A DNA stretch of 36,780 nucleotides from Actinomycetota bacterium (GTDB lineage: Bacteria; Actinomycetota; Actinomycetes; Nanopelagicales; Nanopelagicaceae). The stretch is taken from assembly GCA_947450175.1 (NCBI GenBank), contig CANFUR010000003.1, forward strand, positions 1-36,780, read 5' to 3'. The notes beneath the pieces were generated by a model, which saw only the letters and a program-made list of their open reading frames with translations, was not told the DNA's origin and did no database searches. Position numbers and translations under genes: made by a program. This document shows, piece after piece, positions 5,603 through 28,223 of this stretch (positions are counted from its first letter, which is position 1; every line of letters starts with the position of its first letter).

Positions 5603-5636
5603 CTGGCATTGAATGCCTAATACCGTGACGTCGGGT

Positions 5637-6071: not shown

Positions 6072-6592
6072 CCTTTAATTGCATCATTAACATTAGTTGT
6101 CCATAAAATTAAATCACGCATTCCTGGCTTAATAAAGTTTTCAACTTCTAAGTGCTCAACTAATTCGTGCAAAGGACCATAGATACCAAATGGATCTAAA
6201 ATAACTACGGGTTTGTTATGAAATTTCAGATAACGACCAACCCAAATTTCAAAAAACTCTTCCAAAGTTCCGGCACCGCCTGGCAAAGTAATAAATGCAT
6301 CTGCAATATCTGTAATCATCGCTTTGCGCTCACCCATTGTTTGAACTACATGCAGCTCGTCATTATCGTGATCAGCAAATTCAATATCTACAAGTGCCTG
6401 TGGGATAACCCCTATAGTTCGCCCGCCCGCCTCACGTGCACCACGCGATACTGCGCCCATCATTGAAATGTGTCCGCCGCCCGTGACTAATTCCCATGAT
6501 TGGGATGCGATAGCTGTACCGAGTTCAAAGGCAAGGTCAACGTACTTTGGGTCGATTGTTGGTGATGATGAACAGAAGACTGCAATGCGCAT
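6062..6592 (-). CDS. LOG family / TIGR00730 Rossmann-fold protein
   Basis: VTGGGHISMMGAVSRGAREAGG and LPGGAGTLEEFFEIW (PGGxGTxxE motif). Confidence 0.93.
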   Translation of the reverse strand: MRIAVFCSSSPTIDPKYVDLAFELGTAIASQSWELVTGGGHISMMGAVSRGAREAGGRTIGVIPQALVDIEFADHDNDELHVVQTMGERKAMITDIADAFITLPGGAGTLEEFFEIWVGRYLKFHNKPVVILDPFGIYGPLHELVEHLEVENFIKPGMRDLILWTTNVNDAIKGCS

Positions 6593-6599
6593 GCGGGTA

Positions 6600-6605
6600 A
6601 GGATA
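6600..6605 (-). promoter_or_regulatory. -10-like TATCCT, 7 bp before the LOG-family ATG
   Basis: Minus strand: TATCCT TACCCGC ATG. Confidence 0.5.
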
Positions 6606-6610
6606 GGGGT

Positions 6611-6616
6611 TAGGCT
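6611..6616 (+). promoter_or_regulatory. -10-like TAGGCT, 6 bp before the dapD ATG
   Basis: Plus strand: TAGGCT TAGGAC ATG. Confidence 0.5.
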
Positions 6617-6622
6617 TAGGAC

Positions 6623-7540
6623 ATGACGACTCTCGCATCAGGCCATGGAATTGCAACTGTTGCTTCAGGCAAAGTTCTCGATGTCTGGTTTCCTTCACCA
6701 ACGTTGAGTGCACTTACTGCAGAAATTCCAAGTGAACTAATGCTTTTGGTTGGAAATGATGATGCGCGCGCGATTACTAGGGAAATAGTGAGTCTTGAGA
6801 TTGACATCACCCAAGCTCCAAAAGATGCTGCGGATGCATACTTGCGATTGCATTTACTTTCACACCGCCTGGTCAAACCACATGGTTTGGCACTTGATGG
6901 AATATTTGGATTGCTCAATAACGTCGTGTGGACCTCGTTTGGACCATGCGCAGTTGAAGGTTTCGAATTAACACGTGCACGCTTAAAGGCCAAGTACGGT
7001 CATGTCACTGTTTTCTCAGTAGATAAATTTCCTCGAATGGTGGATTACGTAATTCCAAGTGGAGTTCGTATTGCCGATGCAGATCGAGTTCGTCTTGGTG
7101 CACATTTAGCGTCGGGTACAACGGTGATGCACGAAGGTTTTGTTAACTTCAATGCTGGCACACTCGGAACTTCTATGGTTGAAGGTCGAATTTCTGCTGG
7201 TGTTGTAGTTGGTGACGGTTCCGATATTGGGGGCAGTGCTTCAATTATGGGAACTTTAAGCGGTGGAGGTAAAGAGGTAATTTCAATCGGTGAAAAGACT
7301 TTACTTGGAGCAAACTCTGGATGTGGAATTTCCCTTGGTAATAACTGTGTCATCGAAGCTGGTACGTACATAACTGCTGCCTCAAAGATTCGTCTACCTG
7401 ATGGTGCAATCGTTAAAGCTGCAGCTTTATCTGGGGGACATAATTTACTCTTTCGCCGTAATTCACTAGATGGAGCACTTGAAGCTATTAATCGCACCGG
7501 TGCTTGGGGTGGGCTTAATTCAGTTTTGCACGCTAACTAA
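6623..7540 (+). CDS. dapD: 2,3,4,5-tetrahydropyridine-2,6-dicarboxylate N-succinyltransferase
   Basis: Hexapeptide-repeat region GASGTTVMHEGFVNFNAGTLGTSMVEGRISAGVVVGDGSDIGGSASIMGTLSGGGKEVISIGEKTLLGANSGCGISLG, typical of actinobacterial DapD. Confidence 0.93.
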   Translation: MTTLASGHGIATVASGKVLDVWFPSPTLSALTAEIPSELMLLVGNDDARAITREIVSLEIDITQAPKDAADAYLRLHLLSHRLVKPHGLALDGIFGLLNNVVWTSFGPCAVEGFELTRARLKAKYGHVTVFSVDKFPRMVDYVIPSGVRIADADRVRLGAHLASGTTVMHEGFVNFNAGTLGTSMVEGRISAGVVVGDGSDIGGSASIMGTLSGGGKEVISIGEKTLLGANSGCGISLGNNCVIEAGTYITAASKIRLPDGAIVKAAALSGGHNLLFRRNSLDGALEAINRTGAWGGLNSVLHAN

Positions 7541-15836: not shown

Positions 15837-16595
15837 TTATCGTAGATGAACTACGTCACCAGCCTGAACATGTGTACCGGAGTCCAGAATCAACTCACCT
15901 AGGGCTGAAATATCGACTGCTACTCCTTTTTCAATTAAATCATTTGGGTAGTGGATCTGAACTTTGGTTCCAAGGGTTCCGCACAAAGATTTGTATATAC
16001 CGCCCACAGAATCTTCTCCTTGATCCCAAGCGGTAAAAATACTTTCAAACTCGGTTAGCACGTTGGCTAATAGATGATTTCTATCAATATCAGTTACACC
16101 TTCGATTGCAAGTGATGTTGCCGTTGGTACTGGTAATTCATCGTGCGTCATTCCCACGTTAATTCCAATACCAACTACAACTCCATCACCTGTAACTTCA
16201 GCAATCAATCCTGATACTTTCTTTTCATTGATCAAAATATCATTGGGCCATTTCACGCTTGCGTTATATTTCTTAAGAGATTGCGTAACAGATACACCTG
16301 CGATTAAGGGAATCCAACCCCAATCTTCTTTTTTTCTCGCAGGTTTCAAATAAAAGGAAAACAAGAGCGCAGTATTTTTTGGTGCTTCAAAAGTACGGGA
16401 CATTCTTCCGCGTCCAGCTCTCTGAAAATTAGCAGTAATGACATCACCTGGTTTTACTTTTCCGGCAGCTGCTCGTGTCACCAATGTGGTCTGAGTCGAT
16501 GCGGTGACATCAACCACGCTTACTCGCCAGTACTGCGTAATTAATGAGTTGATCAGAGCCTTATCCAGCGCCGCTCTTAGCATTTGCTTGCCCAT
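15837..16595 (-). CDS. birA: Biotin--[acetyl-CoA-carboxylase] ligase
   Basis: [66 protein letters not shown]. Start set at the internal ATG (MGKQMLRA) because the longer ORF to 16718 runs into the divergent accD coding region. Confidence 0.92.
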
Positions 16596-16601
16596 GACAT
16601 G

Positions 16602-16608
16602 TACCGTA
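16602..16608. promoter_or_regulatory. Shared symmetric -10 (TACCGTA) for divergent birA and accD
   Basis: Plus: TACCGT AGGGGT ATG (N6, accD at 16614). Minus: TACGGT ACATGTC ATG (N7, birA at 16595). Confidence 0.55.
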
Positions 16609-16613
16609 GGGGT

Positions 16614-18185
16614 ATGAGCCGTGATCTGCATACAACTGCCGGAAAAATTCAGGATCTTCAAGCGCGAATTGAGGAAGCCGTGCACGCTGGCTCTGCTCGC
16701 GCCGTTGAGAAGCAGCATGCCAAGGGTAAAAATACCGCCCGCGAGCGAATAGAAATGTTGGTTGACCCAGATTCATTTACAGAAATTGATGAGTTTGCGC
16801 GCCACCGTTCAACACAATTTGGAATGGAAAATAATCGTCCTTATGGTGATGGTGTTGTGATTGGTACAGCCACAGTCGATGGGCGACCAATAGCTTTGTA
16901 TTCACAGGACTTCACAATCATGGGTGGCTCTTTGGGTGAGGTTCATGCAGAAAAAATTGTAAAGATTGCGGAGTTTGCGTTAAAGAGCGGAATTCCACTT
17001 ATTGGAATCAATGACTCTGGTGGGGCGCGTATTCAAGAAGGTGTTGCATCTCTTGCTGGTTACGGAAAAATCTTCCGACTTAACACTCGATCATCTGGGG
17101 TGATTCCTCAAATCTCTTTGATTCTTGGGCCTTGTGCAGGTGGTTCGGCTTATTCACCAGCTCTTACTGACTTTACCGTGATGGTAAATGAAACTTCACA
17201 TATGTTTATTACTGGTCCAGATGTAATTAAAACTGTGACAGGCGAAGAAGTGGGAATGGAAGAACTCGGTGGAGCTCGTACTCACAATGTACGTACTGGT
17301 AATTCACATTATTTGGCAGAAAATGAAGCTGATGCTATCGATTATGTAAAAGCTCTACTTTCTTATTTGCCTTCAAATAACATGGATAGAGCGCCGCATC
17401 TTCCACCAACGGAGCTTTTAGAAAAGAAAGCTACGGATATTGCACTCGATACTTTGATTCCAGATAGCCCAAATCAGCCATACGACATGAAGGTTTTGAT
17501 TCAAGCCTTAGTTGATGAAAGTGAATTCCTAGAAGTCCATGCCCTCTATGCGCCAAATATAGTTGTTGGTTTTGCCCGTATCGAAGGTGAAACCATTGGA
17601 ATAATTGCAAATCAGCCTAATCAATTAGCTGGAACTCTTGATATTAACTCCAGCGAAAAAGCTGCTCGTTTCTTGCGCTTTTGCGATGCGTTCAATATCC
17701 CAATCCTCACTCTCGTTGATGTTCCAGGCTTCCTGCCGGGAACTGAACAAGAGTGGGATGGAATTATTCGTCGTGGAGCGAAATTGCTCTATGCCTATGC
17801 AGAAGCATCTGTGCCACTAGTAACACTTATTACACGGAAAGCTTATGGCGGTGCGTTCATCGTCATGGGGTCTAAATATCTTGGTAGCGATATTAACTTT
17901 GCGTGGCCAACTGCTGAAATCGCAGTAATGGGAGCACAGGGAGCAGTTAATATTTTGTATCGTAAGGAAATCGCTGATGCAAAAGATCCTGTAGGCAAAC
18001 GTGCTGAACTCGTTGACGACTACAACGCTTCTCTAGCTAATCCATATTTAGCGGCTGAGCGCGGCACTATCGATACAGTTATTGAACCAAATCAATCACG
18101 CGCATACATCACCAAAGCATTTAGAACTTTACGCACTAAGCGCGACACTTTGCCAGCTCGCAAACACGGAAATATTCCGCTCTAA
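16614..18185 (+). CDS. Acyl-CoA carboxylase carboxyltransferase (beta) subunit
   Basis: Start [115 protein letters not shown]. Confidence 0.95.
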
Positions 18186-18367
18186 TGGAGTTTTCAATTA
18201 TTAAAGGGAATCCCACTCCTGAAGAATTAGCGGCAATTGAATTTGCTATGTCACAACACAATCGTCAAGAGTTAAAGCCAGTCATGCGCCGAAGTGTTTT
18301 TGGCTTACCGCAACTTCGTCAAGCACTGCCTCATCAAATTACTTTCGGCTCACGAAAGAACGCATAA
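18185..18367 (+). CDS. Acyl-CoA carboxylase epsilon subunit
   Basis: Short ORF with IIKGNPTPEELAAIEFAM signature, between the beta subunit and maf as in other actinobacteria. Confidence 0.88.
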   Translation: MEFSIIKGNPTPEELAAIEFAMSQHNRQELKPVMRRSVFGLPQLRQALPHQITFGSRKNA

Positions 18368-18370
18368 ATC

Positions 18371-18973
18371 ATGCCAAGAATTGTTTTAGCTTCTGCATCT
18401 ACGTCTAGGCGCCGCTTGCTTGAATCTGCGGGATTAAAGCCAACTATTATGGTCAGCCATGTTGATGAAGAAACTGAATTTTTTAACTCAATGACCCCTG
18501 CCGACATGGTCATTGCCCTTGCTATTACTAAGGCACACACAATTCGTGAACAAATCGATTTTCCAGCAATAATTATCGGGTGCGATTCTACTTTTGAGTT
18601 TGAAGGCTTATCACTGGGCAAACCAGCAACACCAGAAATCGCAATAGAGCGTGCATCACGCGTGCGGGGAAATTCTGGACTGCTGCATACTGGTCACTGC
18701 ATCATCGACACTTCAAAAGACAAAGAAATTTCCAGCATCGTCACAACCAAAGTTACATTTGACGATATGACTGACTCTGAAATTAAAGACTACGTAGCAA
18801 GTGGTGAACCACTGCATGTTGCTGGTGGTTTTACTCTCGATGGTTTTAGTTCGCCATTCATTCCTTCAATTGAAGGCGACTACACAAATGTCGTTGGAGT
18901 TTCGATGCCATTTTTGCGCAAAGCTTTTGATCAACTTGGATATTCATGGCCAGAGGTTAAGGTGATGCAATGA
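18371..18973 (+). CDS. maf: Maf family nucleoside triphosphate pyrophosphatase
   Basis: [63 protein letters not shown]. Confidence 0.93.
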
Positions 18974-20688
18974 AACGCGTTCTGATTGCTAACCGAGGCG
19001 AAATCGCCGTCCGTGTCATTCGGGCCTGCAAAGATCATGGTTTGCAAAGTATTGCTGTTTATTCGGAAGAAGACCGCACTGCAATTCATGCACAAATGGC
19101 TGATGCTGCATATTCACTTCAGGGAACAACTGCAACACAAACCTATTTAAATATTGAAAAACTCATTGCAGTTGCAAAAGAATCAGGCGCTGACGCTGTT
19201 CATCCTGGATATGGATTTTTATCTGAAAATGCAAGTTTTGCTCAAGCTGTAATTGATGCTGGGTTGATTTGGATTGGGCCTCCACCGTCTGCCATTCGAG
19301 CACTAGGTGACAAAGTTTCTGCCAGAAAAATTGCGGCAAAAGCTGGAGCGCCACTTGTTGCAGGCACGCAGGATCCAGTTGCAGGTCATGAAGAAGTTCT
19401 AGCTTTTGCGAAAGAGCACGGTCTGCCTGTTGCGATTAAAGCTGCTCATGGTGGTGGTGGGCGTGGATTAAAAGTTGCTCGCACAATGGAAGAAATTCCA
19501 GAGTTGTTTGCCTCAGCCGTTCGTGAAGCAATCAGCGGATTTGGTCGCGGAGAATGTTTCGTTGAGCGCTATTTAGATAAACCACGTCACGTTGAAACCC
19601 AAGTTTTAGTTGATAAACATGGTCATGCAGTTGTTGTCAGTACGCGCGATTGTTCACTTCAGCGTCGTCATCAAAAACTAGTGGAAGAAGCTCCTGCTCC
19701 CTTCTTGACGCCAGCTCAAGAGCAAGAACTATATCGCTCAAGTAAAGCAATCATGAAAGAAGCTGGATATATTGGCGCCGGTACATGTGAATTCTTAGTT
19801 GGCATGGATGGAACTATTTCATTCTTAGAAGTTAATACTCGCTTACAAGTGGAACACCCAGTCAGTGAAGAAATTACAGGCATTGACTTGGTACGTGAAC
19901 AGTTCCGTATCGCTTTGGGAGAATCTCTCGGATTTAATGATCCGATAATACGAGGACATTCAATTGAATTTCGTATTAACGGTGAAGATCCTGGCCGCTC
20001 ATTTTTACCAGCACCAGGTCGAATCACGCAATGGACAATTCCAACTGGTCCTGGTGTACGTGTTGATGCGGGCTTTAAAAATGGTGACACAATCGGAGGA
20101 AACTTTGATTCCTTGCTTGCTAAATTAATTGTTACTGGCGCTACTCGCGAACAAGCTATTGAACGTGCCCGCCGAGCATTGGCAGAATTTACTATTGAAG
20201 GTCTAGCAACCGCGCTCCCATTCCACCGTGCAATAGTTGAAGATCGAGCATTCACACAAGATTTCTCAATCTATACAAGTTATATTGAGAATGAATTTAA
20301 CAATGAAATAGCGATGTACCAGGCAACTGCACTTCCTCTAGAAACTCACATGGCGCCAGAGCACCTGATCACTGAAGTAAATGGCAAACGCTTTGAAGTT
20401 CTAGTTCACGCGCCAAAACCAGTTGTTAAGCGCCACCGTGCAAAGCAATCAATGATCGGCGGTGCTGCCGGCGCATCTTTAACTAGTCCAATGCAGGGTA
20501 CCGTAGTAAAGGTCGCAGTTAATGAAGGTGACCGGGTTGAAGTTGGTGACTTAATTTTCGTCCTTGAAGCTATGAAAATGGAACAGCCATTAATGGCACA
20601 TAAAGCTGGTGTTATCTCTAATTTAAATGCTGTCATTGGTGCCACGGTTTCAAGTGGGACCGCACTTTGTGACATCATTGATGCATGA
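18970..20688 (+). CDS. Acyl-CoA carboxylase alpha subunit (biotin carboxylase + BCCP)
   Basis: [50 protein letters not shown]-terminal [15 protein letters not shown] biotinylation site. Confidence 0.97.
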
Positions 20689-26360: not shown

Positions 26361-27308
26361 CCAGCCTTTTTCAATGGTTTCAAACCATAGTTGCTGCACC
26401 GCTTCAACATCTAAATCAAGGACTACGCGAACTGATGCTGCATCTGTCAGGTCATTTGGCTCTAATGCCTTTAGAAACGGTGCACGTCGATCACAAATAG
26501 TTTGACCACGGGCTGGCCCTTGTGAAGTATCAACAACGACATCGAAAATTTCGGTAGTAAAGAGTTCAGGACGTATCGCACAAGCAACAGCGCCATAGTC
26601 TCCCAGGGTTATTGGTGATACATGAAGGCGTTCAATGAATGCGGCAATCAAAGTTCCTGCAAATTGTCCTGCCGGCTCTTTAGATTGTAAAAGTTTTGCA
26701 GCATCTTCACTTGTTGCCCCAGGACGCATGAAGACATCAAGGCCGTACATAGTGATTGGAACTCCACTTTGGAAAACAATTGCTGCGGCTTCTGGGTCAT
26801 GCCATACATTAAATTCAGCAGCAGCTGTTGCATTGCCTGCAGATGCCGAGCCCCCCATCAAAACAATTCGATGTAGTTTCTTGGCTGTTTCTGGAAAAGC
26901 GCGCAAAAACAAAGCGATATTTGTTAAAGGGGCAATTGGAATTAAAGTAACTGGATCTTTAGATTCTTCAATTAAATCCCTGAGAAGTTCGATCGCCGAA
27001 CGTGGATCAACTTTTCTATGAGATGGAGCTATGCCCAAATCTCCCATGCCGTCAGCACCGTGTACATATTCGGCATACTCTGATTTGCCAAGTAAGGGTC
27101 TGACTGCGCCGCGTGCAACGGGAATGTCACCAACACCAGCTGCATCCAAAACTTTAAATGTGTTTGCAATTACTTGATCAACATTTGTATTGCCATCAAC
27201 ACATGTTATGCCCAACAAATTGATTTGAGGGTGTCGGGCAGCAAAGAGCACCGCGAAAGCGTCATCAACACCGGTATCAACATCAAGAATGATTGAAGTT
27301 TTTTCCAT
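26355..27308 (-). CDS. Nucleoside hydrolase (inosine-uridine preferring family)
   Basis: IILDVDTGVDDAFAVLFAARHP; GITCVDGNTNVDQV; HGADGMGDLG; FNVWHDPEAAAIVF. Confidence 0.94.
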   Translation of the reverse strand: MEKTSIILDVDTGVDDAFAVLFAARHPQINLLGITCVDGNTNVDQVIANTFKVLDAAGVGDIPVARGAVRPLLGKSEYAEYVHGADGMGDLGIAPSHRKVDPRSAIELLRDLIEESKDPVTLIPIAPLTNIALFLRAFPETAKKLHRIVLMGGSASAGNATAAAEFNVWHDPEAAAIVFQSGVPITMYGLDVFMRPGATSEDAAKLLQSKEPAGQFAGTLIAAFIERLHVSPITLGDYGAVACAIRPELFTTEIFDVVVDTSQGPARGQTICDRRAPFLKALEPNDLTDAASVRVVLDLDVEAVQQLWFETIEKGWL

Positions 27309-27314
27309 AAGCGA

Positions 27315-27321
27315 TAGCCTA
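27315..27321. promoter_or_regulatory. Shared symmetric -10 (TAGCCTA) for divergent nucleoside hydrolase and ribokinase
   Basis: Plus: TAGCCT AGCGGT ATG (N6, 27327). Minus: TAGGCT ATCGCTT ATG (N7, 27308). Confidence 0.58.
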
Positions 27322-27326
27322 GCGGT

Positions 27327-28223
27327 ATGGGTAAAGCAGTCATAGCGGTAGTTGGCAGTGCGATGATCGATTTAACTGCCTATGTAAAAACTATTCCTGT
27401 TGCTGGACAAACTTTAGAGGGTGATTTATTCACAACTGGATTCGGTGGAAAAGGGGCTAACCAAGCCGTTATTGCCGCTCATTGCGGCGCCGAAGTCCAC
27501 TTTATTGGCAAGTTGGGAAACGATCTTTTTGGTGATTCGATTGCAGAAAACTTTAATTCTCTGGGTATACGTTCTAATTTTGTAGACCGAAGTGATACCC
27601 CCAATGGAGTTGCCCATATCTGGGTCGATAGCAATGGTGAAAATAGAATTGTGATTATTCCTGGTGCCAATTATGAAATTGAAAGTGACCGAGCTGTTGA
27701 AGCAATCACCTCAATTAAGGATTTAGCTGTAGTAGTTGCACAGTGTGAGATAAGACAAGAAGTTACATTAGCTGCATTTAGTGCGGCTAAGAAGCGTGGG
27801 TGCCTAACTATTTTAAATCCTGCCCCATATCAGCCACTTAGTAAGGAGCTACTTGAGCTTACTGATTGGATTATTCCTAACGAAACCGAGTTCAAAGAAC
27901 TCTGCGGAGAGTTACCAACAAATGATGAGATTTTAAGCGGTTTTAGACCAGGGAAGAATTCAATTGTAACTTTAGGTTCAGAGGGAGCTGTTTTAATTGC
28001 AGATGATGGTGCAATTACACGATTGTCTGCACCAAAAACTGGTGCTGTTGACACAACCGGTGCCGGTGATGCATTTGTTGGAACTTTTGCTTTTGCCTTA
28101 GCAAGTGGAAAAAGTAGTATCGAAGCCATGAATCTGGGAATCAAAGTTGCCTCGATGACCGTGACACGAAAAGGTGCACAATCCTCATATCCTTCTCAAA
28201 CTGAAATAGCTACACTTTCATAA
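27327..28223 (+). CDS. rbsK: Ribokinase (PfkB family)
   Basis: GSAMIDLTAYVKTIPVAGQTLEGDLFTTGFGGKGANQAVIAAHCGAEVHFIGKLGNDLFGD; DTTGAGDAFVGTFAFALASG. Confidence 0.92.
   Translation: MGKAVIAVVGSAMIDLTAYVKTIPVAGQTLEGDLFTTGFGGKGANQAVIAAHCGAEVHFIGKLGNDLFGDSIAENFNSLGIRSNFVDRSDTPNGVAHIWVDSNGENRIVIIPGANYEIESDRAVEAITSIKDLAVVVAQCEIRQEVTLAAFSAAKKRGCLTILNPAPYQPLSKELLELTDWIIPNETEFKELCGELPTNDEILSGFRPGKNSIVTLGSEGAVLIADDGAITRLSAPKTGAVDTTGAGDAFVGTFAFALASGKSSIEAMNLGIKVASMTVTRKGAQSSYPSQTEIATLS

Follow-up and report, generated by a model that had tools for sequence, protein, structure and literature searches.

In the 36 780-nucleotide window (the whole stretch of DNA that was analysed), the biotin ligase gene birA and an acyl-CoA carboxylase operon diverge from start codons separated by only 18 bp, and this gap holds one −10 element, TACCGTA, that can be read on either strand. 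The junction is very probably a dual-leaderless bidirectional promoter, in which a single −10 is used both ways and each transcript starts at, or at most 1 nt from, its start codon. This reading draws on the geometry of the sequence, the conservation of the start codons, the enrichment seen in the counts and a leaderless −10 signature across the genus, from which we infer the actual transcription start sites (TSSs), leaderless translation and mutual exclusion of the two directions. The same 18-bp layout is repeated at other gene pairs, and its repetition is not due to chance. Coordinates are given in Table 1.

The birA–carboxylase junction

Gene identities were assigned by profile search. The 252-residue BirA matches only ligase-domain families, with no N-terminal helix–turn–helix (HTH) family match in Pfam. 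Its substrate, the biotin carboxyl carrier protein (BCCP), is encoded in the divergent operon; the first-pass annotation had placed it three genes downstream of the carboxylase start, which is correct since an accE-like ORF and maf lie between the carboxyltransferase and biotin carboxylase–BCCP genes. The ATG of the accE-like ORF overlaps the carboxylase stop codon. Gene order and divergence are the same as in the actinobacterial birA-accD5-accE5-maf-accA3 neighbourhood (Rv3279c–Rv3285 in M. tuberculosis).

Table 1. Features of the birA–carboxylase region and of a second junction with the same layout
Feature	Position	Strand	Evidence
birA, biotin-[acetyl-CoA-carboxylase] ligase, 252 aa, ligase domain only	15837..16595	−	TIGR00121 2.8e-44; Pfam BPL_LplA_LipB
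birA start codon, CAT (ATG on −)	16593–16595	−	Sequence
Predicted leaderless birA TSS: A of ATG (16595) or 1 nt earlier (16596)	16595..16596	−	Inferred from −10 position; N7 is the second commonest spacing
Whole intergenic region between start codons, 18 bp	16596..16613		Sequence; same length in 30/30 genus relatives
Shared −10 element, TACCGTA	16602..16608		Sequence; TACC[G/T]TA in 30/30 relatives
Carboxylase ATG	16614–16616	+	Sequence
Predicted leaderless carboxylase TSS, A of ATG	16614	+	Inferred from −10 position (7 bp past −7T); N6 is the spacing most often seen ahead of divergent starts
Acyl-CoA carboxylase carboxyltransferase (AccD5/PccB type), first gene of operon	16614..18185	+	PF01039 8e-195; TIGR01117 6e-235
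Small accE-like epsilon subunit ORF	18185..18367	+	PF13822 E = 1e-4, 23.2 bits, under its 25-bit cut-off
maf	18371..18973	+	TIGR00172 2.9e-44
AccA3-type biotin carboxylase fused to BCCP, biotin motif AMKM	18970..20688	+	Profile matches
Second instance, 18 bp with TAGCCTA at 27315–27321, rihC-type hydrolase (−)/rbsK (+)	27309..27326		Sequence

On inspection, the junction (16593–16616) reads CAT-GACATG-TACCGTA-GGGGT-ATG, with birA on the minus strand and the carboxylase operon on the plus strand. The element appears as TACCGT on the plus strand and as TACGGT on the minus strand, giving TACCGT-N6-ATG and TACGGT-N7-ATG, respectively; these arrangements and the 18-bp separation of the starts are as first annotated. 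The element is symmetric in that the −11A and −7T of each strand form reciprocal pairs with the −7T and −11A of the other, and a TANNNT placed N6 and N7 from the two starts puts the predicted TSS on the start codon. On the minus strand, the computed +1 (7-bp rule) is 16596, one base ahead of the A of birA, and the purine at 16595 is probably favoured. The predicted TSSs of birA and the carboxylase are thus 18–19 bp apart. No Shine–Dalgarno site was found before the carboxylase: the five bases ahead of its ATG (GGGGT, 1 nt from the ATG) are swapped for TGTTC, CGCCT or AGCGC in relatives and are therefore too variable to be one. Classic bidirectional promoters are reported to have a T at −18 from each TSS. 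With the TSSs exactly on the start codons the two sides are not both in register: the T sits at −19 on the plus side, and the minus side is in register only if birA starts at 16596. A −35 or a regulator site, if there is one, has to be within the two coding sequences or on the −10 itself. The 6/7/5 layout is shared, with different sequence, by the junction near 27.3 kb, as the first-pass annotation had observed; there, 27306–27329 reads CAT (27306–27308)-AAGCGA-TAGCCTA-GCGGT-ATG (27327).

Conservation, recurrence and gap length

Thirty sequences from the genus (acI/Planktophila-type Actinobacteria), the window's own included, were selected by BirA protein similarity alone (45–100% identity); the relatives in which the junction occurs bear the labels Candidatus Planktophila, Candidatus Nanopelagicaceae or other uncultured freshwater actinobacteria. 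The 18-bp gap and TACC[G/T]TA are retained in all 30 (29 distinct sequences), with the T, A, C, C, T and A columns invariant, and TA…TA is present in every one. Many species carry TACCTTA at this junction, so that of the symmetric −10 originally proposed for two leaderless genes the shared TA…TA stands, whereas full TAC-C-GTA symmetry is dispensable. The inner CC[G/T] and the left-flanking C(T/A)(A/T)G are conserved in the genus beyond the needs of a bare −10, and this excess could reflect an additional bound factor or a tuned promoter strength. Six further genera of the family keep the 18-bp layout between birA and the carboxylase, with cores CCG, CGG or CCT; one genus (two species) has a gap of 17 bp, and three have the leaderless distance only on the birA side, the carboxylase carrying a leader. 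TA…TA stays constant while the −10 core varies, both between junctions (CCG, GCC, TTT, TCC and AAC) and between genera (CCG, CGG, CCT and TCT). Of 20 genomes examined from other families of the class, 13 have birA and the carboxylase side by side and divergent. Seven of these 13 have TANNNTA 5–7 bp ahead of a birA start, and in six of the seven the carboxylase has a longer leader. Most of these neighbourhoods differ from that of the window in their longer carboxylase leader, with TANNNTA at the leaderless distance only from birA. The pattern suggests that the shared −10 is old and that the acI lineage lost the carboxylase leader, although an existing TANNNT is a single added base away from TANNNTA; in this genus that base is usually T and not A.

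At rihC/rbsK, the ten closest relatives (67–81% ribokinase identity) retain the junction, which is altered or lost farther out. A third junction of the window's own genome lies between genes for a Crp/Fnr-family regulator and endonuclease III (crp/nth; L328, G000:C34, match 5603–5626, minus strand), with TACTTTA in 18 bp. Several Planktophila-type genomes (L331, L311 and L379) have an 18-bp gap with TATCCTA in common between mobA and a TIGR03767 metallophosphoesterase gene. In genus g29 (L335, 1504–1521), the menaquinone-pathway genes menE and menB diverge from GTG starts across 18 bp with a common TAGCCTA. Another 18-bp junction, with TAGACTA (L330, 1504–1521), separates an OmpR-type response regulator from a small thioredoxin-like protein that has no match in NCBIfam. 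The suggestion that such divergent genes are functional partners fits birA/carboxylase, rihC/rbsK and menE/menB. As a universal idea it was rejected, since crp/nth are not partners and neither are mobA and the metallophosphoesterase, which have no obvious functional link.

In the genus, TANNNT stands at N6 before 26.4% and at N7 before 10.7% of 140 divergent starts, and at most other distances before ∼1–2%, the hallmark of leaderless transcription known from mapping in M. tuberculosis (PMC3898074). Because TANNNT lies 6–7 nt ahead of 37% of these starts, leaderless mRNA is predicted to be the norm in the genus. A shared TANNNTA with N6/N6, N6/N7 or N7/N7 spacing forces a gap of 17, 18 or 19 bp, respectively, and the 18-bp gap follows from the mixed N6/N7 case. 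Ten genomes were searched for 17- and 19-bp gaps; real 17-bp pairs were found, principally crp/nth in three congeneric species, and no 19-bp pair with open ORFs on both sides was found in these ten. In congeners with the 17-bp crp/nth gap the element is TAAACTA, and the junctions of the three species are a single base away from the 18-bp layout. The recurrence of 18 bp noted in the first-pass annotation holds, but the number has no special status and is not unique: an exclusive 18-bp rule was rejected because crp/nth spans 17 bp around a shared −10 of this kind. Eighteen base pairs is what a shared −10 usually yields, and no separate rule is involved. Other divergent pairs, in an 836-kb census sample, have leaderless −10s back to back with gaps of 22–38 bp, and the 17–18-bp junctions are the most compact end of this range. 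The window itself has such a pair at 6592–6623, with two separate −10s (TATCCT-N7 and TAGGCT-N6) and a gap of 30 bp.

Alternative explanations

If two unrelated promoters merely overlapped, the 18-bp agreement with the 27-kb junction would be an accident. The bare pattern is not rare by itself: its ATG-only form has three matches in the window's own genome, one of them inside a coding ORF, and over 59 genomes the backwards control is high (151 pattern matches compared with 225). Raw counts being weak alone for these two reasons, open ORFs were required on both sides; many matches, such as CACTTGCGCTAGCGTATGGCCATG, were dropped because only one side was open. The census sample (the window together with 400 kb from each of two complete congeneric genomes; 97 divergent ORF pairs) was gridded by placing every TANNNTA according to the left and right distances (0–20) of start codons of open ORFs of at least 100 residues, giving 21 × 21 = 441 cells. 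Seven of the 15 both-open matches fall in the mirrored cells (6,5) and (5,6) and eight are spread across the other 439. The seven represent four junction families (birA/carboxylase, rihC/rbsK, crp/nth and mobA/metallophosphoesterase), all of which pair an N6 side with an N7 side; N6/N6 is absent, although N6 is the commoner spacing, and these numbers are too small to press. When TANNNTA was moved by 2 bp within the 18-bp gap, the 225 matches at (6,5) spacing fell to 102 at (4,7) over the 59 genomes. The base after a leaderless −10 in the genus is usually T (82 of 153; A in only 24), so the A that completes TANNNTA does not simply come with the ordinary promoter. The near genome-wide search for 18-bp divergent pairs with TANNNTA that had been proposed as a check gave five pattern matches in the window's own genome, three of them real divergent pairs (birA/carboxylase, rihC/rbsK and crp/nth), and the finding survives it. 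With the enrichment that emerges once real divergent ORFs are required, and with the gap kept in the 30 relatives and the six further genera, the earlier argument against coincidence is borne out, and the probability of an accident is close to negligible.

The gap would be illusory if the start codons were mis-assigned and birA began upstream within the opposite gene, so that the two genes overlapped. Mechanical ORF calls do overrun the proposed starts (birA to 16718, the carboxylase to 16584 with TTG), and most relatives have a start-like codon 12 codons upstream of the birA start; this codon, however, is conserved because it is the antisense of a conserved His codon of AccD. The comparative data favour the shorter starts: the proposed birA triplet is an in-frame start codon in 30 of 30 relatives while switching between GTG, ATG and TTG (CAC in 24, CAT in five and CAA in one, as read on the plus strand). 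The BPL domain match opens at residues 25–28 of the short form, and an in-frame stop for birA lies at most 44 codons upstream in 65 of 107 junctions. Such an error is thus very improbable. Slightly less so, though still unlikely, is that the near-palindrome is primarily an operator, with a repressor on TACCGTA and its flanks controlling both genes and the fit to a −10 being secondary. TAC-C-GTA is indeed an inverted repeat, and across species whose BirA proteins are only ∼45–50% identical there is almost no variation in the inner CC[G/T] or in the C(T/A)(A/T)G to its left. Against this, other junctions of identical geometry carry different cores, the core becomes CGG, TCT or CCC in other genera of the family, and the distances to both start codons are those that leaderless promoters require. 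BirA, lacking a DNA-binding domain match, is therefore not an E. coli-type repressor, and BirA autoregulation through a BirA-repressed biotin operator was rejected on the absence of an HTH match. An operator and a −10 can coexist at TACCGTA.

Proposed mechanism and relation to known promoters

Under the shared-promoter reading, the housekeeping sigma–RNA polymerase would bind TANNNTA in either orientation, the element being usable from both sides through reciprocal base pairing between the strands (−11A with −7T and −7T with −11A). In the plus orientation transcription would begin at the A of the carboxylase ATG, and in the minus orientation at the birA start codon or one base ahead of it. Both mRNAs would be leaderless and translated without a Shine–Dalgarno site, and −35-like and discriminator bases flanking the element in both coding sequences may decide the direction. 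Steric hindrance is expected to make the two directions mutually exclusive; with one polymerase at a time on the element, we propose that birA and the biotin-carboxylase operon are under one switch.

Bidirectional promoters with a symmetric −10 were reportedly described in bacteria and archaea by Warman and colleagues in 2021. Their TSSs are most often 18 bp apart with reciprocal −7T/−11A (PMC10268837; PMC12825309), and it is this reciprocal pairing that makes 18 bp the commonest spacing. The birA–carboxylase junction is alike in having one −10 on both strands, reciprocal −7T/−11A and predicted TSSs at 18–19 bp. In those two papers, by contrast, the spacing is that between TSSs, and the word leaderless is absent from both. 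At the present junction the start codons lie at the predicted TSSs, so that the intergenic region measures 18 bp in all; each product is an mRNA, and conservation of the element extends across the genus and beyond. Leaderless mRNAs of M. tuberculosis, in the parts of the account drawn on here, have TANNNT ∼7–12 nt before the TSS, lack a conserved −35 and begin directly with the start codon (Cortes et al., 2013; PMC3898074), and the junction resembles them in its TANNNT −10 and predicted 5′-terminal start codons. The same parts describe prpD/Rv1129c as a divergent pair with both mRNAs leaderless and call juxtaposed divergent promoters common (PMC3898074); the birA–carboxylase junction differs from what is set out there in its single shared −10 with an 18-bp gap. 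A literature search, conducted mostly outside subscription papers, returned nothing on leaderless transcripts together with Warman-type bidirectional promoters, leaderless transcripts in Planktophila or birA–accD5 divergence. The junction is best read as a dual-leaderless form of a known promoter class and not as a new kind of system.

It is possible, if somewhat doubtful, that a two-way leaderless −10 has been under selection at birA–carboxylase since before the family diversified, because exclusive polymerase binding fixes the ratio of the ligase to its substrate enzyme, and that the 17–18-bp module was later adopted at other gene pairs in streamlined actinobacteria. If the dual-leaderless reading is true, the junction would come close to the minimum size for a complete divergent control region, with two promoters, two start sites and no leader in 18 bp, and it would link two facts that have been studied separately, bidirectional −10 elements and actinobacterial leaderless mRNA. 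Two-way promoters are already known; the no-leader form, which dozens of related species keep unaltered, stands out as uncommonly compact and amenable to testing. It would offer a natural system in which to ask whether mutually exclusive promoter use balances two genes, and would give a start-site annotation rule for the divergent genes of streamlined actinobacteria.
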